In this document: positions 1 through 18,869 of the stretch, piece after piece | How the letters are laid out: each line of letters starts with the position of its first letter | Position numbering within the stretch: position 1 is the first letter of the stretch | From: a virus | Length of the DNA stretch: 42,881 nt | Virus record (IMG/VR): IMGVR_UViG_3300044825_001507 | Location: 1 to 42,881 of that record | Reading direction: 5' to 3' (one strand) | Notes under the pieces: model-generated | The model's database searches: none | Seen by the model: only the letters and a program-made list of their open reading frames with translations | What the model was told of the DNA's origin: nothing | Position numbers and translations under genes: made by a program

Positions 1-48
1 GCCGCAAGGCTGGGCTGCCGCAAGGCTGGGCTGCCGCAAGGCTGGGCT
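1..48. repeat. Three tandem copies of a 16-bp repeat
   Basis: The unit GCCGCAAGGCTGGGCT occurs three times in perfect head-to-tail array (1-16, 17-32, 33-48) and starts exactly at the window edge, so the array may extend further left. It runs directly into a GCGAAGC-type repeat and then a promoter. No coding frame is evident. Function is unknown; a slippage-prone intergenic repeat or iteron-like binding array are both possible. Confidence 0.9.
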
Positions 49-49
49 T

Positions 50-127
50 GCGAAGCGAAGTTGTGAAGCCTTTTCTAGTATGATATAATGATTCATCTTT
101 TCAAAACATTGCGAAGCATTGCGAAGC
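50..127. repeat. Cluster of GCGAAGC mini-hairpin repeats, left edge
   Basis: The heptamer GCGAAGC occurs at 50-56, 111-117 and 121-127. Further copies on either strand were found by eye at about 5730, 8507, 8621, 9181, 14676, 15779, 16549, 20454, 39648, 42154, 42220, 42321, 42836 and 42846. Many sit in coding sequence and are translated. As single-stranded DNA this heptamer folds into a very stable mini-hairpin (G-C stem, GAA loop; established biophysics). The stretch 44-69 also resembles the reverse complement of 42151-42181, differing mainly by a 5-base insertion. Confidence 0.8.
61..96 (+). promoter_or_regulatory. Sigma70-type extended -10 promoter
   Basis: A -35 box TTGTGA (61-66) is followed by a 17-nt spacer and a perfect TATAAT -10 box (84-89) preceded by TG at 81-82, giving the extended -10 form TGnTATAAT. 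Transcription would start near 96 and read into the plus-strand block 136-2824. The -35 box lies within the dispersed repeat sequence. Because the ATG at 88 lies inside the -10 box, it cannot be the translation start of transcripts made from this promoter. Confidence 0.7.
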
Positions 128-135
128 AAAGCATT

Positions 136-471
136 ATGGCAGACAAATTATACCGTGAGTTCAGTGAAGTTTTAGAGGAAGTTTCCCTGGAAATGGAAAA
201 GGCACTATTTGAAGTTTCTTCCGCCAATTCTTACCACATAGAAGAAGCCGTACGGCGGTACAAAGACGGATTGAAAGCCGCAGCTCTAAGGACAGGATAC
301 GGCCTGGCTGACTTCTATTTTGCGTGGAGGGTAGCAAGGACAGCGATGTACGAAAGTAGGCAATCGCATGGTTTTATGCTAGACAGGGGACGGGCAGACG
401 CCATAACTTACTTTTATGACATCCCGTCATGGAACATGGTTAAGGCAATGATGGATATTTTTACAGAGTAA
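136..471 (+). CDS. Small protein of unknown function
   Basis: This 111-residue protein begins MADKLYREFSEV and is not recognised. It is charged and probably mostly helical, with a glutamate-rich N-terminal third and an aromatic-rich middle (YGLADFYFAWRVART). There is no signal peptide or membrane segment. The frame is open back to an ATG at 88, but that codon overlaps the -10 box of the upstream promoter and would translate the GCGAAGC repeats, so 136 is preferred. The 136 start lacks a clear Shine-Dalgarno sequence. It is the first gene of a plus-strand cluster with a DNA methyltransferase and DUF1566 genes, separated from the next gene by 13 nt. Confidence 0.6.
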   Translation: MADKLYREFSEVLEEVSLEMEKALFEVSSANSYHIEEAVRRYKDGLKAAALRTGYGLADFYFAWRVARTAMYESRQSHGFMLDRGRADAITYFYDIPSWNMVKAMMDIFTE

Positions 472-484
472 AAAGCGATAGCCT

Positions 485-1219
485 ATGAAAAATAGCATAC
501 TTTTAGGGGATTGTTTAGAACTTTTACCTAAAGTTCAAACAAGTTCGGTGGATATGATTTTATGTGACTTACCCTACGGTACTACACGGTGTAAGTGGGA
601 TTCAGTCATACCTTTAGAGGAACTTTGGAACGAGTACACTAGGGTTATAAAACCTAACGGAGCTATTGTGCTATTTGCAAACCAGCCATTTACAAGTAAA
701 CTTGTAATGAGCAATCTTGAAATGTTCAAGTATGACTGGGTATGGGAAAAATCACGCCCAACAGGGGTATTAAATGCAAAAAAGCAACCATTAAGGATTA
801 AAGAAGACATAATTGTCTTTGGAAAAGGCGTTTTATGCTATAATCCTCAGGGATTGGTACTGCTTAATAAATATGTTGGGACAGGAGGAACGGCTGCTAA
901 TCAAAAAGGTAATGCGACTGGTAAAATAGCGCAAACCGAATCAGGTAAATACCTTCAGGAATATGGGAATTACCCTAGAAACATCCTTAAGTTCCCTTCG
1001 GTAGGTAAAACAGTACACCCTACTCAAAAGCCAGTTGAACTATTCCAGTACTTAATAGAGACTTACACTAACCCTGGTGATCTTGTTTTAGATAATTGTA
1101 GTGGAAGTGGAACGACTGCTATAGCTTGCCAGTTAACCAAGCGTGACTTTATATGTATGGAAAAAGATGTAGAGTACCATTCAGTTAGCCTTAATAGGCT
1201 TAAAGAAAACCAAAATTGA
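485..1219 (+). CDS. Phage DNA methyltransferase (beta class, probably N6-adenine or N4-cytosine)
   Basis: This SAM-dependent DNA methyltransferase likely protects phage DNA from host restriction or marks it. Catalytic motif IV appears as DLPYG (residues 28-32), a DPPY variant. HPTQKPVEL (177-185) is the conserved segment before the SAM site, and the SAM-binding motif I is NCSGSGTTA near 203-211. The motif order IV then X/I is that of the beta class. The central part (about 90-170) would be the target-recognition region. At 244 residues the length is normal for an orphan phage enzyme. No restriction nuclease is adjacent. Target sequence cannot be read from the protein. Confidence 0.9.
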   Translation: MKNSILLGDCLELLPKVQTSSVDMILCDLPYGTTRCKWDSVIPLEELWNEYTRVIKPNGAIVLFANQPFTSKLVMSNLEMFKYDWVWEKSRPTGVLNAKKQPLRIKEDIIVFGKGVLCYNPQGLVLLNKYVGTGGTAANQKGNATGKIAQTESGKYLQEYGNYPRNILKFPSVGKTVHPTQKPVELFQYLIETYTNPGDLVLDNCSGSGTTAIACQLTKRDFICMEKDVEYHSVSLNRLKENQN

Positions 1220-1235
1220 TTGAGGTGCAAAGCGC

Positions 1236-1604
1236 ATGAGATACGAAGCAGTGACAGAAACGGAAGTATTAGACCAAGAGACAGGTTTAATCTGGATGAA
1301 AGACCCTAAGATTGACCTAAATTTTGAACAAGCCAAACAATATGCAGAAAGAATTTCTATTATAACTGGAAAATCTTGGAGAATCCCTACAATAGGGGAA
1401 TTAGTTAGCTTAGTAGACTATACCTTATGCACTCCTAACACACCGGCATCAACATTCCCTAATATGTTACAAAATATCTATTGGTCGTTTTCAAACTATT
1501 GGGGTGAGGCTGGTAGAGTCTGGGTTGTAAATTTCTACGATGGTGAGATAATGGGTTATCCCCTTGGTGATAATGTTGCATTAGTTCTCCTAGTTCGGCC
1601 ATAA
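1236..1604 (+). CDS. DUF1566 (Lcl C-terminal domain) protein, paralogue 1
   Basis: A 122-residue protein made of a single DUF1566/Lcl_C domain, a C-type-lectin-like fold used in ligand binding. Hallmarks are ETGLIWMKDP near the N-terminus, SWRIPTIGELVSLVD in the middle, then YWSFSNYWG and a C-terminal VLLVRP that corresponds to the usual VRLVR ending. The start is supported by a GAGGTG ribosome site 7 nt upstream (tgaggtgcaaagcgcatg). Two paralogues follow at 1626 and 2459, so the cluster arose by duplication. Its 3' part keeps a normal adenine content, unlike paralogue 3. It may be a virion or secreted recognition protein; no signal peptide is present. Confidence 0.85.
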   Translation: MRYEAVTETEVLDQETGLIWMKDPKIDLNFEQAKQYAERISIITGKSWRIPTIGELVSLVDYTLCTPNTPASTFPNMLQNIYWSFSNYWGEAGRVWVVNFYDGEIMGYPLGDNVALVLLVRP

Positions 1605-1625
1605 ACTATGAATGAGGTGCAAAGC

Positions 1626-2006
1626 ATGAGATACGTTGAAGTTTCTGAAATACACGACACGCAAACGGGGCTAATTTGGCAAAAAGTATGTCAAGGCTCA
1701 TTCACTATAGAAGAAGCCATAGCCTATGTTGAGTCTTTTAACGCAAGCACCGGTAAGGCTTGGAGACTTCCAACCATTGATGAACTGCATACGCTGGTTG
1801 ACAGAAGCCAATTTGACCCGGCAACTAAAGTCCCAGAAAGCCCTAGTGGTTTTTTCTGGTCATCTACAAAGTATCTTGGGAGAATGGAAAGGGTATTCAC
1901 CAATGAAAACAGCCATAGTTATTGGTATATTAACTTCACTAATGGGGAGGTAAGTTTCAACTTAGGTGATGCGGAGTACTACGTAAGGTTAGTCCGTGAT
2001 AAGTAA
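1626..2006 (+). CDS. DUF1566 (Lcl C-terminal domain) protein, paralogue 2
   Basis: A 126-residue single-domain DUF1566 protein beginning MRYVEVSEIHDTQTGLIWQK, with AWRLPTIDELHTLVDRS, FWSSTKYLG and the terminal YVRLVRDK. The start at 1626 is chosen over the ATG at 1608 because a GAGGTG ribosome site (1614-1619) sits between them and because both paralogues begin MRY. The region between WSS and VRLVR is longer than in the others (about 37 residues) and is rich in Asn, Tyr and Thr. It retains adenine-containing AAT and AAC codons, so it shows no sign of adenine-directed mutagenesis. Confidence 0.85.
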   Translation: MRYVEVSEIHDTQTGLIWQKVCQGSFTIEEAIAYVESFNASTGKAWRLPTIDELHTLVDRSQFDPATKVPESPSGFFWSSTKYLGRMERVFTNENSHSYWYINFTNGEVSFNLGDAEYYVRLVRDK

Positions 2007-2043
2007 TATGTAATGCGGTTAAACAGAAACAGAAGGCAGAAGC

Positions 2044-2442
2044 ATGAGTGAGTTAAAACAAATTGGTAAAATTTTAGAACAAGTATATGGTGGTAAACCC
2101 TTTGCTTGCTATCCAGGGGCAAAAATCTACTTGGAAAATCACTATAAACGGGATGGAAAACTCTTTTATGGCCTAGCCATTATTCTGCAAACAGATGGAG
2201 TGGTTAATATCTACTCAATGGAGGACATTATCAAGGCATTTGACCTAGAAGTTATCCTTCGGAACATGGAATTAACCGTGGATGACCCAAATAGGTTTAT
2301 ACAAAAGTGGCGAGATGTATACAAAGTAGAGAAAGTTATAAAGCTATACCAGCGGAATAACCCGAATTCACCTACTTTACCATTGCTTGAAGCCGATCTG
2401 CTGGAAGCTTTAGATAAAATATGGTCTGAATTGACTAATTGA
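2044..2442 (+). CDS. Unknown protein inside the DUF1566 cluster
   Basis: This 132-residue acidic protein begins MSELKQIGKILEQVYGG and is not recognised. A central hydrophobic stretch (FYGLAIILQTDGVVNIYSM) looks like beta strands, and the C-terminal half looks helical (FIQKWRDVYKVEKVIKLYQ). It has no signal peptide or clear membrane segment. It lies between DUF1566 paralogues 2 and 3, is co-directional with them and is separated by 16 nt from the third. It does not resemble the basic four-helix Avd accessory protein of diversity-generating retroelements. A chaperone or partner of the lectin proteins is only a guess from position. Confidence 0.65.
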   Translation: MSELKQIGKILEQVYGGKPFACYPGAKIYLENHYKRDGKLFYGLAIILQTDGVVNIYSMEDIIKAFDLEVILRNMELTVDDPNRFIQKWRDVYKVEKVIKLYQRNNPNSPTLPLLEADLLEALDKIWSELTN

Positions 2443-2458
2443 AATACCGGAGAAAAAT

Positions 2459-2824
2459 ATGCGTTACGTAGAACAATCCAAGACAGAGATTTTCGACCAC
2501 GAAACCAGCCTGATCTGGCAACGGGCGATTGCGGAAAACATTACATTTGATGATGCTCACGCTTACGCGAAGCTTGTTTCAGACGGGACGGGGCAGTCTT
2601 GGCGAGTGCCTACCATAGACGAATTATCCAGTCTGCTAGATAGAACCCGAAGTTTTCCTGCGTCTTGTTTTCCAGATATGCCGCCTTTGCCATTTTGGTC
2701 GTCGTCGCCGTACGTCGGCTATCCCCTTTTCGCCTGGTATGTCAGTTTCAGCGATGGCCTTGTCGACAGCGGTGCCCGTGGCAGCGACGGCGCAGTTCGG
2801 TTAGTCCGTGATGCAATACCCTAA
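2459..2824 (+). CDS. DUF1566 protein, paralogue 3; probable DGR-diversified variable protein
   Basis: A 121-residue DUF1566/Lcl_C protein with TSLIWQRA, SWRVPTIDELSSLLD, FWSSSPYVG and the C-terminal AVRLVRD. A CGGAG ribosome site precedes the ATG. The last third (codons 85-111) uses C or T in the third position in 26 of 27 codons and has few adenines, whereas the upstream part of the same gene is ordinary. This is the pattern left when AAC/AAT codons of a template repeat are changed at A positions during mutagenic retrohoming. DUF1566 proteins are known DGR targets. The gene also looks more GC-rich than its paralogues. The reverse transcriptase and template repeat are not in the window, so activity is inferred. 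Confidence 0.85.
   Translation: MRYVEQSKTEIFDHETSLIWQRAIAENITFDDAHAYAKLVSDGTGQSWRVPTIDELSSLLDRTRSFPASCFPDMPPLPFWSSSPYVGYPLFAWYVSFSDGLVDSGARGSDGAVRLVRDAIP
2699..2811 (+). other. Candidate DGR variable repeat (VR) with 3' IMH-like end
   Basis: This segment encodes residues 81-117 of the third DUF1566 protein. Hand count gives 11 adenines in 2701-2800 against 20 in 2601-2700. Eighteen codons between 88 and 111 could each derive from AAY (tat, ccc, ctt, ttc, tat, agt, agc, gat, ctt, gac, agc, ggt, gcc, cgt, ggc, agc, gac, ggc). The segment ends in the conserved GTTCGGTTAGTCCGTGA (2795-2811), which could serve as the initiation-of-mutagenic-homology site. The template copy was not found in this window. 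Confidence 0.6.
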
Positions 2825-2845
2825 AACCCCACATACCCCGCAATA

Positions 2846-2883
2846 GGTATTCAAGCCCCGCGTGAGATACCCACGGGAATACC
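2846..2883. repeat. Inverted repeat just downstream of the DUF1566-3 stop
   Basis: GGTATTC (2846-2852) and GAATACC (2877-2883) form a perfect 7-bp inverted repeat. Inside it CCC...GTG can pair with CAC...GGG around the loop agatacc. It starts 22 nt after the stop codon of the putative variable protein. Some DGRs carry a hairpin or cruciform just 3' of the variable repeat that stimulates retrohoming, but spacing and loop here do not match the classical Bordetella phage example. It may also be an mRNA 3' structure. Confidence 0.4.
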
Positions 2884-2897
2884 TTTCTGACAAAGTT

Positions 2898-2949
2898 AAG
2901 GCCAGCCAATAATACCGAGTAAGTATTACTGCTGGCCTTATTTTTATAT
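2898..2949. terminator. Strong, probably bidirectional, intrinsic terminator
   Basis: AAGGCCAGC (2898-2906) pairs perfectly with GCTGGCCTT (2931-2939), and the stem continues inward through AATAATAC/GTATTACT with one mismatch and a bulged C around a CGAGTAA loop. On the plus strand it is followed by the T-rich TTATTTTTAT. On the minus strand the stem is followed by a shorter T-containing tract. It lies between convergent operons, the DUF1566 cluster (plus) and the leftmost end of the minus-strand late operon, and so fits termination of both. Confidence 0.8.
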
Positions 2950-2964
2950 CCCTAGTATTGCCTT

Positions 2965-3192
2965 CTATTGACTTTCTTTTACAAGCATCTTTATTATAGC
3001 TGACATATTCGGTGATTGCGTAGCTATATCTTCTAAGCTATTATCAATCACTTCATAGATGTCTTTTTGGCTCTTTTTTGGCAATATCATGAAACTCTTA
3101 CCACGCAAAACGCTTCCAAGAAGGTCGGAAGTCCTCGTAAGGGTGTCAAAATAGTTCTCTAAACTGCTTCTTTGTGCTTTTGTTAGTGGCAT
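2965..3192 (-). CDS. Small unknown protein, last gene of the minus-strand operon
   Basis: A 75-residue, probably helical protein beginning MPLTKAQRSSLENYFDTLTR. It has no recognisable motif, no Cys and no membrane segment. It follows the sulfotransferase gene by 19 nt in the same direction and ends just before the convergent terminator hairpin. No good ribosome site is visible upstream of the ATG. Function is unknown. Confidence 0.5.
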   Translation of the reverse strand: MPLTKAQRSSLENYFDTLTRTSDLLGSVLRGKSFMILPKKSQKDIYEVIDNSLEDIATQSPNMSAIIKMLVKESQ

Positions 3193-3211
3193 ATAAATTC
3201 TTTAGGACTTT

Positions 3212-3871
3212 TCAAAAAGTATACTTAAAGGTATCTAAGTCTCTTTCGTATAGTTTAACTACAAGTTTTTTTGTAGCATCGGTGTAATAGTCTCTATAAA
3301 ATCCATGATAAGACCTATTATCACTATACGTTATATTAAAAATACCTAATATCTCATTAAGTTTTTGGGTATCATCTGAATATCTCTCGAATCTACCTAT
3401 AAAATCTGGAAAGAAAAGACTTCCATCTTCTTTTTCAAGAAAGCTGACCTGATTTTTAACATGAGAATTATCCATATAGGCTAAAAGAGAACAGAATTTC
3501 TCAAATGATACCTCCGTAAGATTAACCCCTAGTTTCTTAACTTCTTCCAAAATAAAGATATGTTTATACGCGAATACGCTAACCAATCTGTCAAACGGGT
3601 TTCTTATAAAAGTAAAACTAAAATAAGAATCTATTTTATCTTTTGGGAGAATTTTGCAAATATCCCTATAATTTATATGATTTAGAAGCGTGTCTTTTGA
3701 TTCTAGCTGAGAGGATAGACTTTCTGGGATATGCTTTTTTCTTATTCCAGTAAGCCCATTATATTCCTCTTGGCTGTCTGGCCAAGAAATTTCAAACCGC
3801 CTAGTGAGACTTGTGCCTCCTGTTTTTGGTATATGTATAAATATACATTTATATTTATCAGAATATGGCAT
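3212..3871 (-). CDS. PAPS-dependent sulfotransferase (sulfotransferase family 2 type)
   Basis: This 219-residue enzyme should transfer sulfate from PAPS to a hydroxyl, most likely on a carbohydrate. The 5'-phosphosulfate loop is IHIPKTGGTSL (residues 12-22) and the 3'-phosphate motif is FIRNPFDRLVSVF (88-100, with Arg90 and Ser98). This is the compact soluble type found in bacteria and some aquatic phages; no transmembrane anchor is seen. A glycosyltransferase lies two genes upstream in the same operon, so the pair may build or modify a sulfated glycan on the virion or host surface. That link is inference. The start lacks a clear ribosome site. Confidence 0.88.
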   Translation of the reverse strand: MPYSDKYKCIFIHIPKTGGTSLTRRFEISWPDSQEEYNGLTGIRKKHIPESLSSQLESKDTLLNHINYRDICKILPKDKIDSYFSFTFIRNPFDRLVSVFAYKHIFILEEVKKLGVNLTEVSFEKFCSLLAYMDNSHVKNQVSFLEKEDGSLFFPDFIGRFERYSDDTQKLNEILGIFNITYSDNRSYHGFYRDYYTDATKKLVVKLYERDLDTFKYTF

Positions 3872-3879
3872 TTTAACTA

Positions 3880-3984
3880 TTAAAAATAGACTTGTCTGTT
3901 ATGCCATAAAGCAACATAGTTATTCGTCCATTCGACTCCCAATGTGTCAAATGCTCATACTGAGGCATCTTTCTTCAGAGCCAT
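3880..3984 (-). pseudogene. Small ORF interrupted by an in-frame TGA
   Basis: On the minus strand a good ribosome site (AAGGT, 6 nt spacer) precedes an ATG at 3984. Translation gives MALKKDASV, then TGA (3957-3955), then AFDTLGVEWTNNYVALWHNR and a short tail to TAA at 3880. The downstream half looks like ordinary protein. It could be a small gene with a nonsense mutation, a 9-codon leader, or chance. The gap between the neighbouring genes (3872-4052) holds nothing else I can support. Confidence 0.3.
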
Positions 3985-4052
3985 AATTTTACCTTGTGGA
4001 AAAGCAAAGGCGTGTTGTACGGTAGTCGATTCTTGTTGGTGCATTATCATGG

Positions 4053-4619
4053 TTATAAAGTGACTTTTGTATATTCTGGAAAAGTAGCAAAGAGTTCCTC
4101 CGGTATAGGTTCTACTGGCCTATTAGCCTTTACTGGATATGCCTTGTATATCAATCCATGTAATATCATACCATTAAAGGTATCATGTAATCCATTCGGA
4201 TTAACCCTAAGTTCCAGGAACTCTACTCCCTTCTCCATACTTTCTAAGGAAAAGTCATAAGCCCCGTTATCTATAAGACATCTTACAGTTTCAAAATTCC
4301 CTAAAATAAGAATATCATCATCGGCTATCAATGTATTCCTAAAGGGGCTTGAACTTAGACGCATTCTGCTATCTGTCTTATAAACCCCAGTGTCATCAAG
4401 CGTAACTACGAGAAGGTTACTATCCATATCCAGTGTAGCTATCGCGCTAAAGACGATTGGGGTATAGATAGAAGAAGCTATAGCATCTAAATTACTATAG
4501 GTATTATCTTGTAAATTACCTAACGTAGTTGCTATCTCTTGCCTAGCCATAATGCTATGTCCAGTCATTTGTTCTTCTACCTTACGAAGCCTATAACCCC
4601 CTCTAGATATAAAAGCCAT
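4053..4619 (-). CDS. Unknown protein between glycosyltransferase and sulfotransferase
   Basis: A 188-residue protein beginning MAFISRGGYRLRKVEEQMTG, not recognised. The N-terminal 45 residues look helical, followed by a beta-rich middle (VFSAIATLDMDSNLLVVTLD) and a mixed C-terminal part. There is no signal peptide. It starts one base after the glycosyltransferase stop, implying translational coupling. Position in a late operon next to carbohydrate enzymes suggests a structural or tail-associated protein, but nothing in the sequence proves this. Confidence 0.65.
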   Translation of the reverse strand: MAFISRGGYRLRKVEEQMTGHSIMARQEIATTLGNLQDNTYSNLDAIASSIYTPIVFSAIATLDMDSNLLVVTLDDTGVYKTDSRMRLSSSPFRNTLIADDDILILGNFETVRCLIDNGAYDFSLESMEKGVEFLELRVNPNGLHDTFNGMILHGLIYKAYPVKANRPVEPIPEELFATFPEYTKVTL

Positions 4620-4620
4620 A

Positions 4621-5919
4621 TTAGAATCCGATCACTTTTGTGAAGATCTCATCCCACTTGTCAAGGTGGGCTTCTGCGAAGTTTTCTTCAATGTGTTCGC
4701 GTCCTGCATTACCGGCCTCTTTTAGCATGTTGTCTTGTGCATTGTATAAATCCCACATTGCGGCTAAGTAGTCCCTAGAAGACACAAAGTCATGGTAGAG
4801 AGCAATGGCGTCTTGGCTAGCCACAATACACTGCGCTGCCACTTGTACAGCCTGGCCGTTGGGGCCATCTTTACCCAAAATTTGCTCAGGTATTCCGCCG
4901 GTAAGCGGGGCAATAACGGGGGTATGGCAAGCAAGGCTTTCTAATACAGGCAGGCCGAACCCTTCTGCGAAACTTGTATTGCAGGTAACATCAGCGATGT
5001 TGTAGAGAAGGATAAGGGCATCTTCTGACATTTCCTTATCAAGTATTTTTACGTCATGTTCAGTCAAACTAAGAAGTGCCATAACATCGTAAAGGCTACT
5101 TACGCCGTTTGTTACTGAAGTTTTCATCAGCAAAACCGGCCTACGCACCGCTATAGTTTGACCGCTTTCTTCTGCTTCTTTTATCTCATCTTCAATTTGC
5201 TTTTTGAATTGAGCAAATATACTCAACATGAGTTCTGGCTGCTTCCTTGCCATGTTTTTTCCATTCCAAAAGAAAATAAAGGTGTTTTCGTCACCGAAAA
5301 GACTTTTTTTAGCCTCTTCTTTGTTTTCGTCTGAAATTTGCCCGAATTTAGTAAGGTCAACCGTATGGGGAATGTAGGATATTTTATCCACGTATCCAAG
5401 TGTTTCCATACATTTATACGTCAGTTTACTAATGCAAGCAATGTGGGATACGCGGTCGTACAAGGGTTTGTTATTAACCGGTGCCGGATAGTTATCCCAT
5501 ACGTGATAGTAAACTAAGGGTATCTTAGCAATAACCGGGTAATCTTTTGCTATAGTATCAATGGCCGCTGGCAGCCAGGTGTAAAACCTTGGGTCAGTCA
5601 TGAACCAGATTGCATCTACTAAATAGGTATCTAGTATATTGCGAAGTTTATCTACGTCACCATAAGACTTGTAAGGCAATAGCGTTACGTTATCGCTAAA
5701 GGCGATAGGTTCTTCTGGAATAGCCTCTTGCGAAGCTATCGCACCGAGGCAGATGAATTTATAGCGTCCTGTTGCTTCAAGTTTTTGTACCATGCGTAGA
5801 GTTTGACGGGCTACGCCGGTAGGTGCGGTTAGAAAATCTGACAAGACTAGGATGTTTTTTGGTCTTGTAATTGCTTTTGCTTTTGCTTGCTTCTTGAAAA
5901 TTTTATCAATGATACTCAT
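4621..5919 (-). CDS. Family 4 (GT-B fold) glycosyltransferase
   Basis: A 432-residue retaining glycosyltransferase that would move a sugar from a nucleotide-sugar donor. The N-terminal domain starts NILVLSDFLTAPTGVARQT near residue 22, with the glycine-containing acceptor loop. The donor domain has FFWNGKNMARKQPELML near residue 216 and the E-x7-E signature in SFAEGFGLPVLESLA (Glu319 and Glu327). The ATG at 5919 (MSIIDKIFKK) is preferred over 5946 because TTAGGA lies 7 nt upstream. It is separated by 62 nt from the fibre-like gene and runs one base into the next gene. Likely targets are virion proteins or host surface glycan. Confidence 0.88.
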   Translation of the reverse strand: MSIIDKIFKKQAKAKAITRPKNILVLSDFLTAPTGVARQTLRMVQKLEATGRYKFICLGAIASQEAIPEEPIAFSDNVTLLPYKSYGDVDKLRNILDTYLVDAIWFMTDPRFYTWLPAAIDTIAKDYPVIAKIPLVYYHVWDNYPAPVNNKPLYDRVSHIACISKLTYKCMETLGYVDKISYIPHTVDLTKFGQISDENKEEAKKSLFGDENTFIFFWNGKNMARKQPELMLSIFAQFKKQIEDEIKEAEESGQTIAVRRPVLLMKTSVTNGVSSLYDVMALLSLTEHDVKILDKEMSEDALILLYNIADVTCNTSFAEGFGLPVLESLACHTPVIAPLTGGIPEQILGKDGPNGQAVQVAAQCIVASQDAIALYHDFVSSRDYLAAMWDLYNAQDNMLKEAGNAGREHIEENFAEAHLDKWDEIFTKVIGF

Positions 5920-5981
5920 AGGTTGTCCTAAGATGGTGGAAGACATCCTTGTCTATATTCTATCCTTTTATTTCTGCGATT

Positions 5982-7064
5982 TTACTGAATCAAGGCTCCC
6001 CACGGAGTTGAAGCAGTGTTAATGGTTGGAAACTGACTGTTGTTAGTTGCATCAAAGAACGGGTAATTCAAAGTGGTATCAAAGGCTTTACTATACAAGA
6101 ATTGCATAACAAATACGCTGGAAGCGAATGAAGCGGCTTCAACACTTGAACCAAAAGTTAGAGTTACAACAGTTGAATTGAGAATAGGGTTTCCTTGGAG
6201 CGGCGTACAAGATAAATCGTCTATAACAACGTCAAATGTCTGGCCGTCTATGATAGTGCGGACAGTTTGAAAATTTAGAACGTCGGTCTTCTCAATGAAA
6301 TAAGTCCCTGAATAAGTAACCAAGAGTTTTGTTGGGTCACTCGGGGAAACAGAAACTGATGTAGAGTTCCAAGTCGCCAGATTCAGTGCCGATTTTGCCA
6401 GGGAATTTAAGCGAGCTTGGATATTAGTACCCATTATCGCTTGTTGGGACTGTACATTGCTTGCATAAGCAACCAGCGCATTCTTAATTACTGTATCAGC
6501 ATCCGCACGCGCAGTAGCTTCAGCCGTAATAGCATTAGAGCTATTAGTAGCTAGAGTAGTAATAGCACCATTCAGCGTGCTATCAGCCGCTTGGAAAGCC
6601 GTTACGATTTCAGTCAGAGAGTCAAGGGCAGTTGCATCAATGTTCGACAGAACATTGTTAATGCGGGTGTTGAGGTAACTAAAGGCGTTTGCTGAGTCTT
6701 CTTTACCTTTTCTAATAGAGGCATTAAGATTAGAGAAAGCCGTTGAAAGCCCACCAACAGTAGTATTATACCCAGCATTTAGCGACCAGGAATTGCTTGA
6801 AGTGTTATAAGAGTACCCTTCACCAAAATTCCAAGATATAGCGGTAAAACTACCAGCCTGTCTGGAGCTAACTTCACTATCCAACGCACTCTTAACTTCA
6901 TTAAGTGCGCCAAACAAGTTAGTCTTTACAGTGGTAACCAGATTAGCCAACACACCGTCAGCATTAGCACGCGCCGTTGCTTCAGTGCTAATGGCGGTAT
7001 TCAAGTCAGATACAATAGTATCCAAGCCAATGATGGTAGTGGTACTACGTTTAATAATAGCCAT
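5982..7064 (-). CDS. Fibre-like structural protein with coiled-coil repeats
   Basis: A 360-residue protein beginning MAIIKRSTTTIIGLDTIVSD. Its N-terminal two-thirds carry repeated segments of the type TAISTEATARANADGVL and AITAEATARADADTVI (near residues 25 and 180), a pattern common in trimeric coiled coils of phage fibres. The C-terminal 130 residues look like a beta-rich globular tip. The ATG at 7064 is chosen over the GTG at 7073 because TAGGTG (7070-7075) is the ribosome site. It is probably a virion fibre or adhesin, a possible substrate of the downstream glycosyltransferase and sulfotransferase. Confidence 0.75.
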   Translation of the reverse strand: MAIIKRSTTTIIGLDTIVSDLNTAISTEATARANADGVLANLVTTVKTNLFGALNEVKSALDSEVSSRQAGSFTAISWNFGEGYSYNTSSNSWSLNAGYNTTVGGLSTAFSNLNASIRKGKEDSANAFSYLNTRINNVLSNIDATALDSLTEIVTAFQAADSTLNGAITTLATNSSNAITAEATARADADTVIKNALVAYASNVQSQQAIMGTNIQARLNSLAKSALNLATWNSTSVSVSPSDPTKLLVTYSGTYFIEKTDVLNFQTVRTIIDGQTFDVVIDDLSCTPLQGNPILNSTVVTLTFGSSVEAASFASSVFVMQFLYSKAFDTTLNYPFFDATNNSQFPTINTASTPWGALIQ

Positions 7065-7103
7065 AATTTTCACCTAAGAAAAAATTGAAAAAGAATGTCG
7101 GCG

Positions 7104-7325
7104 TTAAGCCTGAGTAGCTTTATTGCGTTTTTTAACCAATAAGCGAACAAACCGTCTAACTTGTCTAAAAATAATACGATACTCACTGTCGTATTCAGCT
7201 TTTAGCGTAGTGAATTTTTCCTTTTCTAAAGCAAATTCTACGGCATCTTTTGTCTCTACCCCTTTCTCCCCCTTAAACATTAACCATGCGGCAAAGTAAA
7301 AGTCTCTTATTTTATACTGCCTCAT
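7104..7325 (-). CDS. Small basic protein, unknown (faint DUF5659-like look)
   Basis: A 73-residue protein beginning MRQYKIRDFYFAAWLMFKG and ending in a basic segment (RRFVRLLVKKRNKATQA). The opening resembles small phage proteins of the DUF5659 type, which begin with a DFYLAAFL-like motif, but this is a weak visual match. It sits in the run of small structural-like genes between the endolysin and the fibre gene. No clear ribosome site is seen. Confidence 0.5.
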   Translation of the reverse strand: MRQYKIRDFYFAAWLMFKGEKGVETKDAVEFALEKEKFTTLKAEYDSEYRIIFRQVRRFVRLLVKKRNKATQA

Positions 7326-7346
7326 AGATTTAGCAACGGAGCTATG

Positions 7347-7751
7347 TTAAACAGGTGAATAAAGTTCAAGTATTTGCGCTGTACCTTGTTGGATGCTCCA
7401 GTGACCATAGATAGGGCCAGTATACATAACTGTGTCCCATACGAAAGCGTCATCTGGATAAAGAAGATGGCTGAATTTTGTGGTTGTTGCAGCTTCTCCA
7501 AAAGCTATTCTTAAAATAGCATCTGTAGAATTATTATAAATGCTAAAAGCAAGTCTAGTTCTATTTATAGGCAACAATTCTACGCTAGTTAAACTAGCGG
7601 GGATTGATAGCGTTCTTGCAAGTTCAGTATACCTATGTGGTATACCGGGCGGCCCTTGCTTAATAGCCTCAATAGTTTGAAGGGATTTTTGCCCTATTAC
7701 TTCTACGGTTCTTATTACAGGTGATTGTACTACATAAATGGTGTCAGCCAT
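7347..7751 (-). CDS. Probable minor virion protein
   Basis: A 134-residue protein beginning MADTIYVVQSPVIRTVEVIG. After an extended N-terminus it has a short collagen-like GPPG and then a compact beta-rich domain ending FGEAATTTKF, WSIQQGTAQILELYSPV. That pattern is common in small phage tail or capsid accessory proteins. An AAGGTG ribosome site lies inside the end of the upstream gene, whose stop is one base away, so the two are likely co-translated. Exact location in the virion is unknown. Confidence 0.6.
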   Translation of the reverse strand: MADTIYVVQSPVIRTVEVIGQKSLQTIEAIKQGPPGIPHRYTELARTLSIPASLTSVELLPINRTRLAFSIYNNSTDAILRIAFGEAATTTKFSHLLYPDDAFVWDTVMYTGPIYGHWSIQQGTAQILELYSPV

Positions 7752-7752
7752 G

Positions 7753-8112
7753 TTACCGCACCTTCATGATTATCTTACCTGTTATAAGTGTATTTACGAA
7801 CCCATCAGTTTCCGTTGCTATAAAATAGAAGTAATCGCCAGATAAAAAGGTTGCGCTTTGCGTTGCGCTAATTATAACCTTTATGTTCGCTTCTGTCCCT
7901 GTAATGTCAATGCTGCCATCCGTTGAGCTAAAACTAGCTATTGGTACGGCGTCTAACTGGTCACGTCTAATTTCCATTGACACAGTTGTGTTTAATAAAT
8001 CAATCATCACCCCATCGGCATCTTTATAGGCAAACTGCATCAATACAGTATCGCCTATGTACTCAATGAAGTTTATTCTTGTCGTTTCACTTTGTATTGT
8101 TAAATTAGCCAT
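7753..8112 (-). CDS. Probable beta-sandwich minor structural protein (BppU-like look)
   Basis: A 119-residue protein beginning MANLTIQSETTRINFIEYIG. The pattern of alternating hydrophobic residues, DTVLMQFAYKDADG then MEIRRDQLD then FLSGDYFYFIATETDG, resembles the N-terminal beta domain of phage baseplate-upper or tail-fibre adaptor proteins. An AGGTGG ribosome site precedes the ATG. It is closely coupled to the next gene. Assignment is by pattern and neighbourhood only. Confidence 0.6.
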   Translation of the reverse strand: MANLTIQSETTRINFIEYIGDTVLMQFAYKDADGVMIDLLNTTVSMEIRRDQLDAVPIASFSSTDGSIDITGTEANIKVIISATQSATFLSGDYFYFIATETDGFVNTLITGKIIMKVR

Positions 8113-8130
8113 AACGCCACCTAATTTGCG

Positions 8131-8364
8131 TTACGCAGAATACATTTCTCTATCTTTCATATCTGCCTTAGCCATTTTCTTCCCTAGTTCAAATGCTTCC
8201 ATAACATAGCTAGTAAGCAGACTTTCAAATTCCACCATAGTGGCGTCTATTGCCGCTTCTTGCAATGCTACGCTAGGGTATACTATAGTTGCCGGAATTT
8301 TGATGACGTTAAATAAATTCTTAACTTCATCCGCTGATGGTTTAATTATGTGCTTAATTTCCAT
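8131..8364 (-). CDS. Small unknown helical protein
   Basis: A 77-residue protein beginning MEIKHIIKPSADEVKNLFN. It is acidic and mostly helical by composition and has no membrane segment. The start overlaps the end of the preceding gene by 11 nt and has an AAAGGG ribosome site. It ends 18 nt before the next gene. It is in the minor-structural gene run after the endolysin; function unknown. Confidence 0.55.
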   Translation of the reverse strand: MEIKHIIKPSADEVKNLFNVIKIPATIVYPSVALQEAAIDATMVEFESLLTSYVMEAFELGKKMAKADMKDREMYSA

Positions 8365-8767
8365 AAATACCCTTTAAGTAAAGTATGAATGAGTGGATAG
8401 CTAATTTACCATCCTCTGTCTCTAAGAACTTAGGAAGTTCACTCTCTACTGATGCAATATGCTTCGTTAGAAACACTTGGTCATTTTCATCTAATGCGTT
8501 ACCGATGCTTCGCATTAAATGACTTACCGCAGAAACAGGCTCTTGCGGGGTAGTGGCGGCTTTCTGCTGCATAGCAACTTTAGCCGCCTCTACTTCTTCC
8601 ATTAAAACTTCCTTTACAATGCTTCGCAAATAGTCTCGGCTGCTAACGCTGTTAGCGTTAGCGTCACTTACAGGTGGTGTGGCTTGCGCGGCTTGCGTAG
8701 CCGGTTGTGTCCGTAAAGACGCTTGAAGTTGGGCTAATTGCGCTTGTAAAGAGGCAATATCATACAT
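8354..8767 (-). CDS. Unknown protein with N-terminal coiled coil
   Basis: A 137-residue protein beginning MYDIASLQAQLAQLQASL, a short leucine-heptad segment. It is followed by an Ala/Pro/Thr-rich linker and a helical C-terminal domain (YLRSIVKEVLMEEVEAAKVA, then FLTKHIASVESELPKFLET). An AAAGG ribosome site precedes the ATG. Two GCGAAGC/GCTTCGC heptamers (8507, 8621) are part of the coding sequence. Probably a structural accessory protein; the family is not recognised. Confidence 0.6.
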   Translation of the reverse strand: MYDIASLQAQLAQLQASLRTQPATQAAQATPPVSDANANSVSSRDYLRSIVKEVLMEEVEAAKVAMQQKAATTPQEPVSAVSHLMRSIGNALDENDQVFLTKHIASVESELPKFLETEDGKLAIHSFILYLKGIYGN

Positions 8768-8824
8768 GAATTATGGCCTTTCAAGGATTTTAAGGCCATA
8801 TTTTACCTCTTTTTCATCCTTTTT

Positions 8825-9688
8825 TCAATACACTTTGGTGTTAGCCGCAGTTTGCTGCCCTGCCCCACCTGACATAGTGCCTAAGTTAACTACACTTTGC
8901 GTATTCTTCTGTATTTCCCCTACGAGTTGCTGCAAAAGGGTACTTTGCAAAATAGCCTGCTGTTGCTGCTGCATCTGCATTTGGTTCTGGTTAATGTTAT
9001 TAGTAACATTTACTCCACCTGCATCAACTGCGCTGCGAGTACGAAGGTCAGCAATTTGATTATTAAGTTCCGTTACAAGATTCGCCATAATCATAGCGCG
9101 AGTTTTATCTCCGTCAGAGGTAATTTCTCGCGTTACATTATTGAATCCTTGCAACATATTGGTGTTGAGAGCATTCATCTGCGAAGCCAGGGCAGATTCA
9201 GTTTCGTGAATCTCATTGATGATATTGCCACTTGTGGTAGCGATAGCCGTCTTAATCTCCCCTTGCCCCATCAAGTTAGCAATTTGTGCTTGCAACTGTT
9301 GGATGAGAATCGTCTGATTGCCTTGAGTAATGCTAGCGTTAATGGCATTTTCAGCCGCGCTAATAGAAGATATTATTTCTTGCGACGAATCCTGGATGTC
9401 TTTCAGAAGCAACATGCTATTGTTGTTAGCCTGGTTGGCATTAGCCAAAGCTGCTGAAACGGCGGCGTCAATGGCAAGCTGTTGGGCATTTGGGTCAATG
9501 GCTACACCATTATTTGGCCCCCACAAATTGCCTCCGTTTCGCATCAGCGAGCCAAGTATAAGCCCACCGATAAGGTTATTTGAGTCATTGCCACCGAATA
9601 AATTACCCATATTTGCACCTTTAAGTAATGTATCTAACATTGAAAATTCACTACCAGCGGTAGCGGTACTTGCAGCGTCAACGGCCAT
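8825..9688 (-). CDS. Structural protein with glycine-rich N-terminus and long coiled coil
   Basis: A 287-residue protein. The N-terminal 65 residues are rich in Gly, Asn and hydrophobic residues (NLFGGNDSNNLIGGLILGSL). Residues 70-215 form a long Ala/Gln/Asn-rich coiled coil (LLLKDIQDSSQEIISSISAA and similar). The C-terminus carries a Gln/Met-rich tract (QMQMQQQQQ) and a Gly/Ala tail. A GGTG ribosome site precedes the start. It lies directly after the endolysin gene in the late operon. A virion or ejection-associated role is plausible but not shown. Confidence 0.65.
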   Translation of the reverse strand: MAVDAASTATAGSEFSMLDTLLKGANMGNLFGGNDSNNLIGGLILGSLMRNGGNLWGPNNGVAIDPNAQQLAIDAAVSAALANANQANNNSMLLLKDIQDSSQEIISSISAAENAINASITQGNQTILIQQLQAQIANLMGQGEIKTAIATTSGNIINEIHETESALASQMNALNTNMLQGFNNVTREITSDGDKTRAMIMANLVTELNNQIADLRTRSAVDAGGVNVTNNINQNQMQMQQQQQAILQSTLLQQLVGEIQKNTQSVVNLGTMSGGAGQQTAANTKVY

Positions 9689-9699
9689 AAATCACCAAT

Positions 9700-10140
9700 T
9701 TAGCTATGTTTAAGGATGAACTCTTTACTGAGTTCAAAGTGCATACCATCTGGAGTTTTCCATTTACCTCCCCACTCAAAACCCTCGCTAGTGAAGCAAT
9801 CTACGAATGCTTGCGATAGTTTTGGCGGCTTACCAAAACCATTCCATGCTGCATTGACATCTATCGCAAGCCCCCATGCGTGCATACTATAAGTGCTTCC
9901 ACCTTTTTTAAGGCGAAGGTTATAGCAGCCATCCCACGTTCGTAGTTCATTTACAATGTCAGCGTCCATTAAGTTTCTAAATGCTTCCTCTAATGCAAGA
10001 GGAAGCAAAGTAGAACAATAAATACGCTTTGGGATTGCGCCTATCTCCAACGGAGTAGGCACATCCCACATTTTCATGTACTTCTCAGAACTAGGATGCC
10101 CGAAAATTTTAAGGCATTCTGTAGAAGTAATGAGAGCCAT
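9700..10140 (-). CDS. M15-family peptidase endolysin (D-Ala-D-Ala/L-Ala-D-Glu type)
   Basis: A 146-residue zinc peptidase that would cleave peptide cross-links of peptidoglycan during lysis. Zinc ligands fit SMHAWGLAIDVN (His87 and Asp94) and DGMHFEL (His134), with the catalytic acid in GFEWGGKW (Glu122). The size matches compact phage M15 endolysins. The ATG at 10140 is chosen because it follows the stop of the upstream tail gene by one base; an in-frame extension to 10212 would run back into that gene. No signal peptide is present, so a holin should be needed; holin candidates lie at 21515 and 40142. Its place amid structural genes is unusual. Confidence 0.88.
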   Translation of the reverse strand: MALITSTECLKIFGHPSSEKYMKMWDVPTPLEIGAIPKRIYCSTLLPLALEEAFRNLMDADIVNELRTWDGCYNLRLKKGGSTYSMHAWGLAIDVNAAWNGFGKPPKLSQAFVDCFTSEGFEWGGKWKTPDGMHFELSKEFILKHS

Positions 10141-10141
10141 A

Positions 10142-12499
10142 TTAGCCCGCCAGCGTAATTGAAGATATGCCAATCTTTCTAAATGAAAGGTCTTGTCCGG
10201 CATAGTTACCAACAGTGCTATTAGTTACTTTAACAAGTTGCAATTTGTTAAACTTAACAAGCACGTAGCCACTTCCGCTAGTCCACTTAATGTAAAGCGC
10301 ATGGTCTTCCTCCAAGTGATTGTCAGGGTTATAAGATGCGTTCGCCTGTTCTTCAGTGATGGTAAGGCTTACATCAGTTGGGACGGAACCACGTGACCAA
10401 CCATCACCACAACCAGTCTGAATCCTAACGTATTCTTTGCTACTGAAGTTGGGTGCTGAAAGTTTATCAAAACAGACGTTCTTTCGGTTCTCAACCATAG
10501 CAAGGGCACTTGCTTTTGTTATAGAGCCTATGCTAATACTAACCACACCAGAGCTACTTGTTGAAACCACGGAACCATCAACAGGCAATCCCGTAGTCCC
10601 TCTATTTGGCAAAACAGGTGAAAACACAACGGTATTGGTAGCTTTATCTGTGGTTGTAGTGTAACCAGCTAAAGCACCTGTGAAATAATTTGAATCCATA
10701 AACTCAGAAGTTATGGTTGACGCTGACGTGGTTTTAGCAAACTCGAGAGGCACACTTGTTGTTCCATTTAGGCCAGTTCCAGAAAAATACACTTGTCCAG
10801 CTTCTCCATCTACATTAGAAATCGTGTAAGAACCTAAGATGGATTTTATAGTAGACCCGGCGGGGTAGTCGGCGGCCTCCCGAAGGGTTACTGTAAAATA
10901 TGTGTACTTAGCGTTTACGCTCGCTAGATTATCCGTTGTTTCACCTTTCTCAGACCCGAGAGCGACTAATATATTCGCTATATTTGCAGCATACCTAATT
11001 GGAGAACCAGTTTTTACAGTTAAAACGTAGTTTCCTACCGTAACAGATTGCCCTTCTCTAATAGTTGCTGGAAGTGTAATTTTATACTTTTTACCAAGCC
11101 CAAACAGCTTATTTAATGAAGAAGCTCCTATACCATTAGGCAATCCCTCAATGCCATTTGTAAAGTATCTGGTAAGGTCACTTGCGGTGATTGGGCTTGC
11201 GTTTGCTGCATTAAGTTTTAATCCCCCTAATGAAATGTTCCCTCCGGCAGGCAAACTAGACAAAAACTGAATTTTTGTAGCAAAACTTTCCAAGTCCATC
11301 TGACAAGTGGTAAGTGAATCGGCAGAAATGTTTGCAGCAATGTTAGACTTCTGCAACGCTCTAGTAGCCGTATCGGGCGTTATGCGCTGTTTATCCGTTA
11401 CTCGCTTAAAGTTACCCATAAAGGCCCATTTCAACTTAGCCTTAGTACCGATAACTGCGTCAAAATCAACAGTTCCTCTAACGTCAGTATAAGTAAATGC
11501 CTTTTCTTGCGTGTTAAAAGTACTTGAAGCCGACGAACGCCGAATTTCAATAGTTAAATAAGAATCTACTGAATCTTGGGTAGTGTAAGTTACTCTGCCA
11601 TCAACACTTGTATCTGATTTAAGACCTGTGGCATTAAAGAAGGCACCCATAGGTATGTAGTCGCCAACTAGCTTCTGGCTTGCATAACCCGTATCTACTG
11701 CGGGAACGAAGGTTTCAAAATCAATCTTGCCATAGCGGTCGGTAATGACAGTTCTTTCGTCAATCTCATTTTCGTCACCGCTATACAGGAAGGCTTCACT
11801 TGTAGTTTCAAGTGAATACGTCAAGTTTAGCACTGCTACGGCATTTTTAGGGCCGAAGTCAAAAGAGTAATCCAAGTGTTTATTTTCTGTTGCCCTATCC
11901 GTATCGTCAAGGTTTTCCAAGAGTAAAACTCTATTTGACAATACAGATTCAATTCTCCCGATATTAACATTTGGTGCGCCACTACGCCTAATATACATAC
12001 CAACCGTAGCCTGACCCAACCCATCCCCTTCAGCATCTTGATACTTGAAACGGCAGGCAGCCCCACCAACAACATATTTAGTTGATGCGGTTGAGAGTGT
12101 TAGCGATATAGGCGTGCCACCGGTAGCGGCAGTAGCAGCACTAATTGTCGGAAACGTAGAAGAGCCTGGAATAAATATCAATACCTGAGTCCCGCCAATA
12201 TCTTCAATAACAGGCAAGTCCCCTGAGCCACCAACATTAAGGTCTGTAACTGTTATAGTATCATCCAACAAACGTGCTTTAAGATTAGCTGCGCTTACAT
12301 CACCACTCGCAGTAAATGTAACTGTGCCAATAGTAAGCACATTACCGTTAGCAAGCGCGGGAACAGTGAATACTTTTGAGCTACCGAACCTAACAGTACC
12401 CGTAGTTTCTGCAACACTTTTTACAGCACTATTAAATTCTGCATTTTGTTTACAGGCAAATATCTGCACTGCTTTTTCATGAAACCGTACAACACTCAT
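10142..12499 (-). CDS. Very large major tail (tube) protein candidate with inserted beta domains
   Basis: A 785-residue protein starting MSVVRFHEKAVQIFACKQ with a GAGG ribosome site. By gene order (after capsid, connector and tail-terminator-like genes) it occupies the place of lambda gpV, which is about 246 residues, so it is about three times larger. Extra domains are visible: residues about 38-136 (VLTIGTVTFTASGDVSAANL), about 470-560 (VTVGNYVLTVKTGS) and about 560-660. The first resembles the insertion in the decoration protein at 15107. The rest is Thr/Ser-rich and beta-rich, as expected for a tube protein. The identity is positional; a tail sheath is unlikely because no other contractile-tail genes are present. 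Confidence 0.65.
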   Translation of the reverse strand: MSVVRFHEKAVQIFACKQNAEFNSAVKSVAETTGTVRFGSSKVFTVPALANGNVLTIGTVTFTASGDVSAANLKARLLDDTITVTDLNVGGSGDLPVIEDIGGTQVLIFIPGSSTFPTISAATAATGGTPISLTLSTASTKYVVGGAACRFKYQDAEGDGLGQATVGMYIRRSGAPNVNIGRIESVLSNRVLLLENLDDTDRATENKHLDYSFDFGPKNAVAVLNLTYSLETTSEAFLYSGDENEIDERTVITDRYGKIDFETFVPAVDTGYASQKLVGDYIPMGAFFNATGLKSDTSVDGRVTYTTQDSVDSYLTIEIRRSSASSTFNTQEKAFTYTDVRGTVDFDAVIGTKAKLKWAFMGNFKRVTDKQRITPDTATRALQKSNIAANISADSLTTCQMDLESFATKIQFLSSLPAGGNISLGGLKLNAANASPITASDLTRYFTNGIEGLPNGIGASSLNKLFGLGKKYKITLPATIREGQSVTVGNYVLTVKTGSPIRYAANIANILVALGSEKGETTDNLASVNAKYTYFTVTLREAADYPAGSTIKSILGSYTISNVDGEAGQVYFSGTGLNGTTSVPLEFAKTTSASTITSEFMDSNYFTGALAGYTTTTDKATNTVVFSPVLPNRGTTGLPVDGSVVSTSSSGVVSISIGSITKASALAMVENRKNVCFDKLSAPNFSSKEYVRIQTGCGDGWSRGSVPTDVSLTITEEQANASYNPDNHLEEDHALYIKWTSGSGYVLVKFNKLQLVKVTNSTVGNYAGQDLSFRKIGISSITLAG

Positions 12500-12516
12500 A
12501 GCATAAACCTCATTAA

Positions 12517-12927
12517 CTAAGAAATTCTAGGCATAACAAGCCCGACCACTTCATTCCACCATACTTTTGTATTAGTTTCACCTTTTATCATAGCTTCAAC
12601 AAAAGTGATACTGGAATAATCTGCGTCATCGGGAAACGGCGAGTAACCTGTATAGGCTGCTCTAATCCTCGTTCTAACTTCTGCCCAGTTGCTACGCAAG
12701 CAGACATAGTTAACTTCCGTTAGGAGTATTTCAGGATTCTCATACTCCACATAACCGTTACTGAATAAAGTATTCTTATCAAAAAGCTGAATACCTAAAT
12801 GGCCTACATATAACCTTGGTAGTGTTTCATTGGTTGAAAGTAAATCAACCTGCCTACCAGGGCTATACGTTACAGTGTAACCAGTTTCAGTCTGCAACCT
12901 ATTGATAAGAGTGCTTTCATTATACAT
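12517..12927 (-). CDS. Tail terminator (lambda gpU-like position) candidate
   Basis: A 136-residue protein beginning MYNESTLINRLQTETGYTVT. The helical start, beta-rich core and length fit tail-completion or tail-terminator proteins, and it directly precedes the tail-tube gene, as U precedes V in lambda. It overlaps the upstream gene by 8 nt. Sequence alone does not prove the family. Confidence 0.55.
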   Translation of the reverse strand: MYNESTLINRLQTETGYTVTYSPGRQVDLLSTNETLPRLYVGHLGIQLFDKNTLFSNGYVEYENPEILLTEVNYVCLRSNWAEVRTRIRAAYTGYSPFPDDADYSSITFVEAMIKGETNTKVWWNEVVGLVMPRIS

Positions 12928-13228
12928 CTTCTACGCTACTCGCATCGCAGAAAAGCTCAGTCCAACCATTTAAGCTATCTATAAAGCTGTTCACAGTTAA
13001 ATTATAGGTCATTCCCACTTTACTATATGTAAGTGTGGTGCCTGCCCCTATATCATAATCATATACTGTTTGCGTAGCAACTTGTATACTTATTGACTGC
13101 GAGGCAAGTTCATACGCCCCGCCTGCTAGGGTGACCAATTCCGTCCCAAGTATACCACGAAAGCGTCCAGCGTCACACTCGAAAAGGTCGCCAAACACTT
13201 CCAATACTAATGCTATGTCTTCTATCAT
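12920..13228 (-). CDS. Head-tail joining protein candidate (lambda FII-like)
   Basis: A 102-residue protein beginning MIEDIALVLEVFGDLFECDA. The pattern of a short helix, FRGILGTELVTLAGG, then beta strands ending in a domain of about 90 residues resembles small beta-barrel head-tail joining proteins. A TTAGGT ribosome site is present. It lies between the gpZ-like gene and the tail-terminator candidate. The order (Z-like before FII-like) would be swapped relative to lambda, so the assignment is tentative. Confidence 0.5.
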   Translation of the reverse strand: MIEDIALVLEVFGDLFECDAGRFRGILGTELVTLAGGAYELASQSISIQVATQTVYDYDIGAGTTLTYSKVGMTYNLTVNSFIDSLNGWTELFCDASSVEDV

Positions 13229-13245
13229 AATTAACCTAATTAAAG

Positions 13246-13878
13246 CTATTTATATGAAATAAGCCTATCTAGCATCAGTTTCTCTATCCTTCCTTTAAGT
13301 GAAGCATCTTCCCTCATAGTAGTAGCTACCATTTGCGATATAGACGGCCCACGAAGCGGATGTATCTCAAATGCGCTGCGGCTATTCCTTTCCCACATAG
13401 TAATACCCCATTTAGGAAAGTTCTTATTTTTAACCTTTTTACCGTCTATTTTGCCTTCTCGCGGTATGAAGCCACCAAAGCCCAATTTACCATACGATAT
13501 TTTTTCACCTCCTTTGCGCCGTATCTGCACTCGATGGACAAGCCCTGGCTTAGTCTTTTCCGCGATTGGCTCGATATTTCCAATGTCTTCTGACGTAAGA
13601 AAGCGGCTAAGAGGAATGGATTTATACCCATACGTTATGCCATTCTTATAAATATACCTACCGGTTCTACCGGTATTAGAGGGAAGTCTCCCTCTAATAA
13701 CGGATGCGGTAGTCATATTGGCGGGCAGGCGATACCGGCGATTGACAGCGGAATGAATTATTGCATCTATATCCTTAAGTAAGGTAACTGTGCGTTTTTC
13801 ATTCTTTTTCGTCATAGTTTGAAGGTCAACTAAGCCGATAAAATTATCAAGAACCTTGGTATCGCCTGTGTTTTTCAT
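13246..13878 (-). CDS. Minor tail protein Z-like (lambda gpZ family)
   Basis: A 210-residue basic protein. Features resembling the prophage minor tail protein Z family are the N-terminal helix with AIIHSAVNRRYRLPANMTT, the mid-protein IPLSRFLTSEDIG (near residue 85), a KLGFGGFIPREGK segment, and the C-terminal IHPLRGPSISQMVATTM. In lambda Z works at the head-proximal end of the tail. It follows the major capsid gene by 12 nt, which fits the lambda order loosely. I see no catalytic motif. Confidence 0.7.
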   Translation of the reverse strand: MKNTGDTKVLDNFIGLVDLQTMTKKNEKRTVTLLKDIDAIIHSAVNRRYRLPANMTTASVIRGRLPSNTGRTGRYIYKNGITYGYKSIPLSRFLTSEDIGNIEPIAEKTKPGLVHRVQIRRKGGEKISYGKLGFGGFIPREGKIDGKKVKNKNFPKWGITMWERNSRSAFEIHPLRGPSISQMVATTMREDASLKGRIEKLMLDRLISYK

Positions 13879-13890
13879 GACCGTGTTAGT

Positions 13891-15907: not shown

Positions 15908-15915
15908 AAGTCACC

Positions 15916-16287
15916 TCACTTAATTGATGCCAAAAATTCATTACCTTTAATCCATTCAGCGAATGGGCTAGAAGCACTTTCTGCTACTTGCGGGGTAGCC
16001 GTAGCAGCGACAGGAGTTGGATTCGCCATTTGTATAGCTTCCTTAACCGCTTCAAACATAGCTACACTTTGCTCAATGCTTGAAGATAAGTTAATTTGCT
16101 TAATGGCAACGTCTGACGACAGGCCAAACGTCTTAGCCGCATCCAAAATGGCCAGGCAGCGTGCGCGTTCATCGGCCACTGCTTTACTAATAGCTACAGA
16201 TGAAGCAGCTTTCACCGCTTCAAGTTCCGCACGAAGACGCAAGGTCTCGTCAACTTGTGCAGATGAATTATCAAAAGAAGAACTCAT
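15916..16287 (-). CDS. Nested scaffold protein (lambda Nu3 analogue)
   Basis: Within the protease gene an in-frame ATG at 16287 starts MSSSFDNSSAQVDETLRLRA and has a GGTG ribosome-like sequence 8 nt upstream (cggtgtaaaaatatg). The 123-residue product is Ala/Glu/Ser-rich and mostly helical (VSKAVADERARCLAIL-like segments), typical of scaffolds, and shares the protease C-terminus. Lambda makes Nu3 from the C gene in the same way. Expression from the internal start is inferred from the site, not demonstrated. Confidence 0.65.
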   Translation of the reverse strand: MSSSFDNSSAQVDETLRLRAELEAVKAASSVAISKAVADERARCLAILDAAKTFGLSSDVAIKQINLSSSIEQSVAMFEAVKEAIQMANPTPVAATATPQVAESASSPFAEWIKGNEFLASIK

Positions 16288-18864: not shown

Positions 18865-18869
18865 AACAG

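Follow-up and report, generated by a model that had tools for sequence, protein, structure and literature searches.

A DGR-type variable repeat in a lectin-like gene of a phage that probably infects methanotrophs, and its possible rewriting in trans by a host retroelement

The sequence analysed here, referred to as the window, is the whole of IMG/VR record IMGVR_UViG_3300044825_001507, which is linear, 42,881 bases long and probably derived from a phage of a methanotroph. It encodes three Lcl_C genes (PF07603, formerly DUF1566), the third of which, at 2459–2824, had been predicted to be the target of a diversity-generating retroelement (DGR). Much of the window is colinear (130–38,909) with a second, 65.5 kb phage record, IMGVR_UViG_3300035670_000191, denoted G005. 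The features of the region are:

1236–1604, plus strand: DUF1566 paralogue 1 (PF07603), apparently not a DGR target; 90% amino acid identity to the G005 copy over its whole length
1623–2006, plus strand: DUF1566 paralogue 2 (PF07603), apparently not a DGR target; 89% amino acid identity to the G005 copy
2459–2824, plus strand: DUF1566/Lcl_C gene, DGR target; 121 aa, C-type-lectin-like fold, Pfam PF07603 E = 6e-23
2693–2808, plus strand: DGR variable repeat (VR), TTTTGGTCGTCG...GTTCGGTTAGTCCG, matching the templates of loci L040 and L042 with mismatches concentrated at template A
2846–2883, plus strand: inverted repeat GGTATTC...GAATACC, 3′ of the VR, a candidate target-recognition hairpin (from sequence and DNA fold)
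2897–2940, plus strand: strong hairpin followed by a T-run, terminator-like and conserved in G005 (DNA fold z = −4.2 for 2809–2950)

Phage DGR hairpins lie 4–34 bp downstream of the VR and have a GC-rich stem of 7–10 bp with a GRNA loop (PMC3240598). Neither the inverted repeat at 2846–2883, whose stem is imperfect and only partly kept in G005, nor the hairpin at 2897–2940 has this canonical form. Sulfotransferase, glycosyltransferase and tail-fibre genes adjoin the third Lcl_C gene. The phage sulfotransferase (PF03567) and glycosyltransferase genes, at 3212–3871 and 4621–5946 (minus strand), possibly modify glycans of the host or the virion. The left end of the record (1–130) contains short tandem units, GCCGCAAGGCTGGGCT and GCGAAGC, which may have broken the assembly.

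The original prediction drew on codon and base composition, and its counts proved exact. Codons 85–111 of the third gene end in C or T in 26 of 27 cases (40 of 84 in codons 1–84), and positions 2701–2800 hold 11 A residues, against 20 in 2601–2700. The value of 26/27 is the single highest among 13,092 stretches of 27 codons in the record's ORFs of at least 100 codons. The repeat shared with other loci does not start after WSSSPYVG but earlier, at TTTTGG (2693), and it ends near 2808. Its last ~23 bases have partly drifted, with GCA, TTA and GTC in the window where relatives have GCG, TTG and GTT. This synonymous drift at the 3′ end suggests that the last rewriting was not recent or stopped short.

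Searches with the protein and with the repeat located the same VR in other phages and in a bacterial genome. A protein search of IMG/VR matched L001, in a different, GC-rich phage (59% identity), and L002. A DNA pattern written from the conserved VR spelling (TGGTCGTCGTCGCCG..CGTCGGC) had three matches in IMG/VR, namely L003, L005 and L004, the last on the contig of L001. Among genomes it matched a single contig, L006, from a MAG named uncultured Methylococcaceae, where it lies beside a secA-like ORF. The exact pattern with the window's own VR 3′ end matched no genome, because that end has drifted. Methylococcales genomes were also searched with an implied template, written from the variable copies with A at the variable sites. 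This returned further variable copies in the MAG (L008–L011), and true DGR cassettes in other genomes. One bacterial ORF of MAG G003 (L010, 358–2031) contains three tandem Lcl_C domains, of which two or more have a complete VR. L061 and L063 belong to the same phage species (~96% DNA identity) and stop before the VR; they come from metagenomes 3300035670 and 3300047457, also the source of L001, L003 and L005. A 456-aa protein of L005 (1792–3162, minus strand) and G005 has a C-terminus (GGYWGHGPGAGAWAFYLGHVGSYSNDTVGGRSGLYL) like that of a formylglycine-generating-enzyme DGR target, although an AAY origin of the codons is less evident there and the protein has no Pfam match.

The VRs of the window and of L006, a bacterial chromosomal gene, are identical at 61 of 62 non-A columns. 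By codon alignment, the parts of the two genes that precede the VR have 41% of bases and 7 of 22 synonymous codons in common. Of the 21 differences found between the window and L006/L008 in 93 columns, 20 fall at template-A columns; all 116 columns give 27 differences, the extra ones lying in the last 23 columns and arising partly from the 3′ drift in the window. As judged from these alignments, the likeness of the two VRs reflects a common template and not common descent.

Three loci on Methylococcales chromosomes, L040 (in genome G240), L041 (G258) and L042 (G244), were found to be DGR cassettes. In each, a DUF1566 gene whose 3′ end is variable is accompanied by a small Avd-like gene (similar in sequence but apparently interrupted in L041), by a non-coding A-rich template copy, and by a reverse transcriptase (RT) that was detected by the RVT_1 profile. 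The L040 template matched the template predicted from the VRs alone at 93% over 94 bases, which confirms that prediction independently. ORFs reading as REP-associated-type transposases lie between template and RT at L040 3008–3538 and L041 9089–9622 (minus strand).

The distribution of mismatches was analysed over columns 1–93, with template-A status taken from the templates actually present at L040 and L042 rather than from the prediction. The window VR differed from the L040 template at 22 of 31 A columns and 7 of 62 others (p = 1e-8), and from the L042 template at 22 of 31 and 12 of 62, respectively (p = 2e-6). Across six VRs from four phage contigs and the Methylococcaceae MAG (the window, L001, L003, L005, L008, which equals L006, and L009), 28 of 31 template-A columns were variable against 8 of 62 others (p = 2e-13), so that relatives did not differ at equal rates at adenine-derived and other positions. 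These comparisons use single VRs and bear on past, not present, rewriting. Independent template repeats, and variation that in phages and bacteria alike falls almost wholly on template-A columns, uphold the prediction that this gene is a DGR target, and its 3′ end is almost certainly a DGR variable repeat. Template spelling was absent from the 3′ regions of paralogues 1 and 2 by codon alignment. Given this, and the high identity of both to their G005 orthologues, paralogue 3 is the only apparent target.

The template behind the window VR is well supported as being of the Methylococcales type. In synonymous spelling, the L040–L042 templates differ from the window VR at ~10–20% of non-A columns, so none of them is cognate, and wider class and phylum samples contained no template closer than the Methylococcales ones. 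Neither the cognate template nor its RT turned up in any genome searched, MAG G003 with its several VRs among them. The only RT of G003 (L007) was considered and is probably not that of this DGR, as it has no template nearby and lies beside Cas2-like and ThiF-like ORFs (read from sequence). At L007 3–2733, this RT ORF adjoins the Cas2-like ORF, with the ThiF-like and an E2-like ORF just upstream, and the locus may be an uncommon kind of conflict system, either RT/CRISPR or ubiquitin-like.

Comparison with G005 showed how the repeat has changed within the phage lineage. In the first 72 VR columns, up to a two-codon length difference at which the comparison ends, the window and G005 differ at 10 of 19 A columns and 1 of 53 non-A columns (p = 2e-6). 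Upstream of the VR, ~34% of the bases of this gene differ between the two, against 1/53 at the non-A columns (p = 1e-7). This indicates that the repeat was rewritten since the two phages diverged, or was acquired separately. As the A sites change and the silent third positions stay as the template spells them, the VR would have to have been copied repeatedly from templates that are nearly the same, or else acquired independently and recently in the two phages. The two-codon length difference implies more than one template.

The host is likely Methylococcaceae-like. Gene similarity, and not CRISPR spacers or a prophage, is the basis of this assignment. The nearest cellular relative found of the target protein is in the Methylococcaceae MAG G003 (62% over 109 residues), and when window positions 1–20,000 were compared with 311 Methylococcales genomes the best match was the gene of this same relative in G003. 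That comparison gave gene homologues only, with no CRISPR-spacer-type match recognised. Isolated phages offer only distant relatives of the terminase, and their records no homologue of the 2459–2824 protein; PHROGs gave no family for the DUF1566 proteins encoded here. An AlphaFold model of the 121-aa protein forms a compact C-type-lectin-like domain (mean pLDDT 87). Its best structural match in the PDB is the C-terminal domain of Legionella Lcl (8q4e), with a probability of 1.00 but E = 0.05 and TM 0.53, and a PDB sequence search gave nothing. The modelled fold points to a ligand-binding protein, and the neighbouring sulfotransferase, glycosyltransferase and tail-fibre genes fit a surface-related role.

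No RT was found in the window or in G005, nor in G001 and G004, which are unrelated phage contigs with the same VR. Those records also contained no match to the Avd-like genes of L040 and L042, and in the window and related phage records only the VR was present, with no second, template-like copy. A protein query with the L042 RT gave no match; it was run without a positive control, but RVT_1 did detect the RTs of L040–L042. The original prediction placed a complete DGR belonging to the phage itself outside the window. Both records are incomplete and linear, and G005 extends ~25.6 kb further to the left, so RT, Avd and template might lie in a missing part; many IMG/VR phage contigs do hold related RTs with a template just upstream. 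However, the left 25 kb of G005 contains ORFs whose sequences suggest a DNA polymerase, helicases, a ligase and ThyX (searches covered some of these), G005 also carries structural and tail genes, and homologues of genes near the window's right end recur at its 6.9 and 15.7 kb positions, so that most of the genome is probably represented between the two records. Neither yielded RT or template. No IMG/VR contig has a template with the window's VR start, an A-rich template pattern matched none, the predicted template is matched over part of its length only by those of the 80 best phage loci with an RT, and the templates that come closest are those of Methylococcales chromosomes. A DGR of the phage's own therefore appears unlikely.

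Passive inheritance deserves rather more weight, though we still consider it improbable. The gene would have been acquired by recombination from a DGR-bearing methanotroph or phage and would have drifted since, with no current diversification, as its similarity to the Methylococcaceae MAG gene, the synonymous drift at the VR 3′ end and the lack of an RT found in the phage would allow. Drift would, however, also strike silent third positions, and the near-identity of the window and G005 at non-A columns, beside their divergence at A columns and upstream, requires renewed copying or two separate recent acquisitions. Lectin-like proteins generally have variable ligand-binding loops, and ordinary positive selection on such a loop, combined with codon bias, could in principle act with no retroelement. 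We regard this as extremely improbable: it is already contradicted by the A-column test, a bacterial chromosome and phages unrelated to one another have identical silent sites at non-A columns, and template repeats of the matching class adjoin RTs.

We consider it probable, though well short of certain, that this phage has no RT of its own and that a DGR of the methanotroph host, or another co-resident element, rewrites its VR in trans. The VR, the last ~116 bases of the gene, belongs to a DGR of the DUF1566–Avd–template–RT type of Methylococcales chromosomes. The RT would misread A while copying an adenine-rich template RNA, and the cDNA would replace the VR, randomising surface positions of the lectin-like protein and resetting scaffold codons to the exact spelling of the template. 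The machinery would be supplied to the phage, itself without an RT, by the DGR of its host, which is probably Methylococcaceae-like, or by another element in the cell, and the protein would bind a ligand on the host cell or the virion. A BPP-1 phage that lacks avd, TR and brt can be diversified if no more than these three are provided in trans, and this holds for replicating phage too (PMC3240598), which makes the action of a host DGR on an incoming phage mechanistically plausible.

We also lean, if only slightly, towards a broader reading in which methanotroph phages carry 'orphan' VRs but no retroelement. A single template of the host's chromosomal DGR would then act on lectin-like genes in the host itself and, in trans, in several phages unrelated to one another at the same time. 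DGR searches commonly begin from the RT, and targets on RT-less phages are thus easily missed. If rewriting in trans is correct, a bacterial mutator would be common to the host and its viruses, and a single template would spread across genomes by retrohoming. In a limited search of the open-access literature, no account was found of a phage gene that the DGR of a host diversifies in nature.

The target shares its family and predicted fold with the Legionella Lcl C-terminal domain; Lcl, however, is a bacterial adhesin and, to our knowledge, not a DGR target, whereas the protein described here is from a phage. The DUF1566 cassettes L040–L042 are of the same domain family, and the L040 template resembles the predicted one, but they are bacterial and have longer target proteins. 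As in the DGR of Bordetella phage BPP-1 (mtd, avd, TR, brt), an A-restricted VR occupies the 3′ end of a phage gene with a C-type-lectin fold. BPP-1, in contrast, has RT, Avd and TR beside its target, none of which was found in this phage, and its target is Mtd rather than a 121-aa Lcl_C protein. The arrangement also resembles remote DGR targets, such as those of Trichodesmium (PMC8867640), which lie far from the RT and are rewritten from a shared template. Those targets are in the same genome as their RT, whereas here the target is in a virus and the proposed RT in its host.
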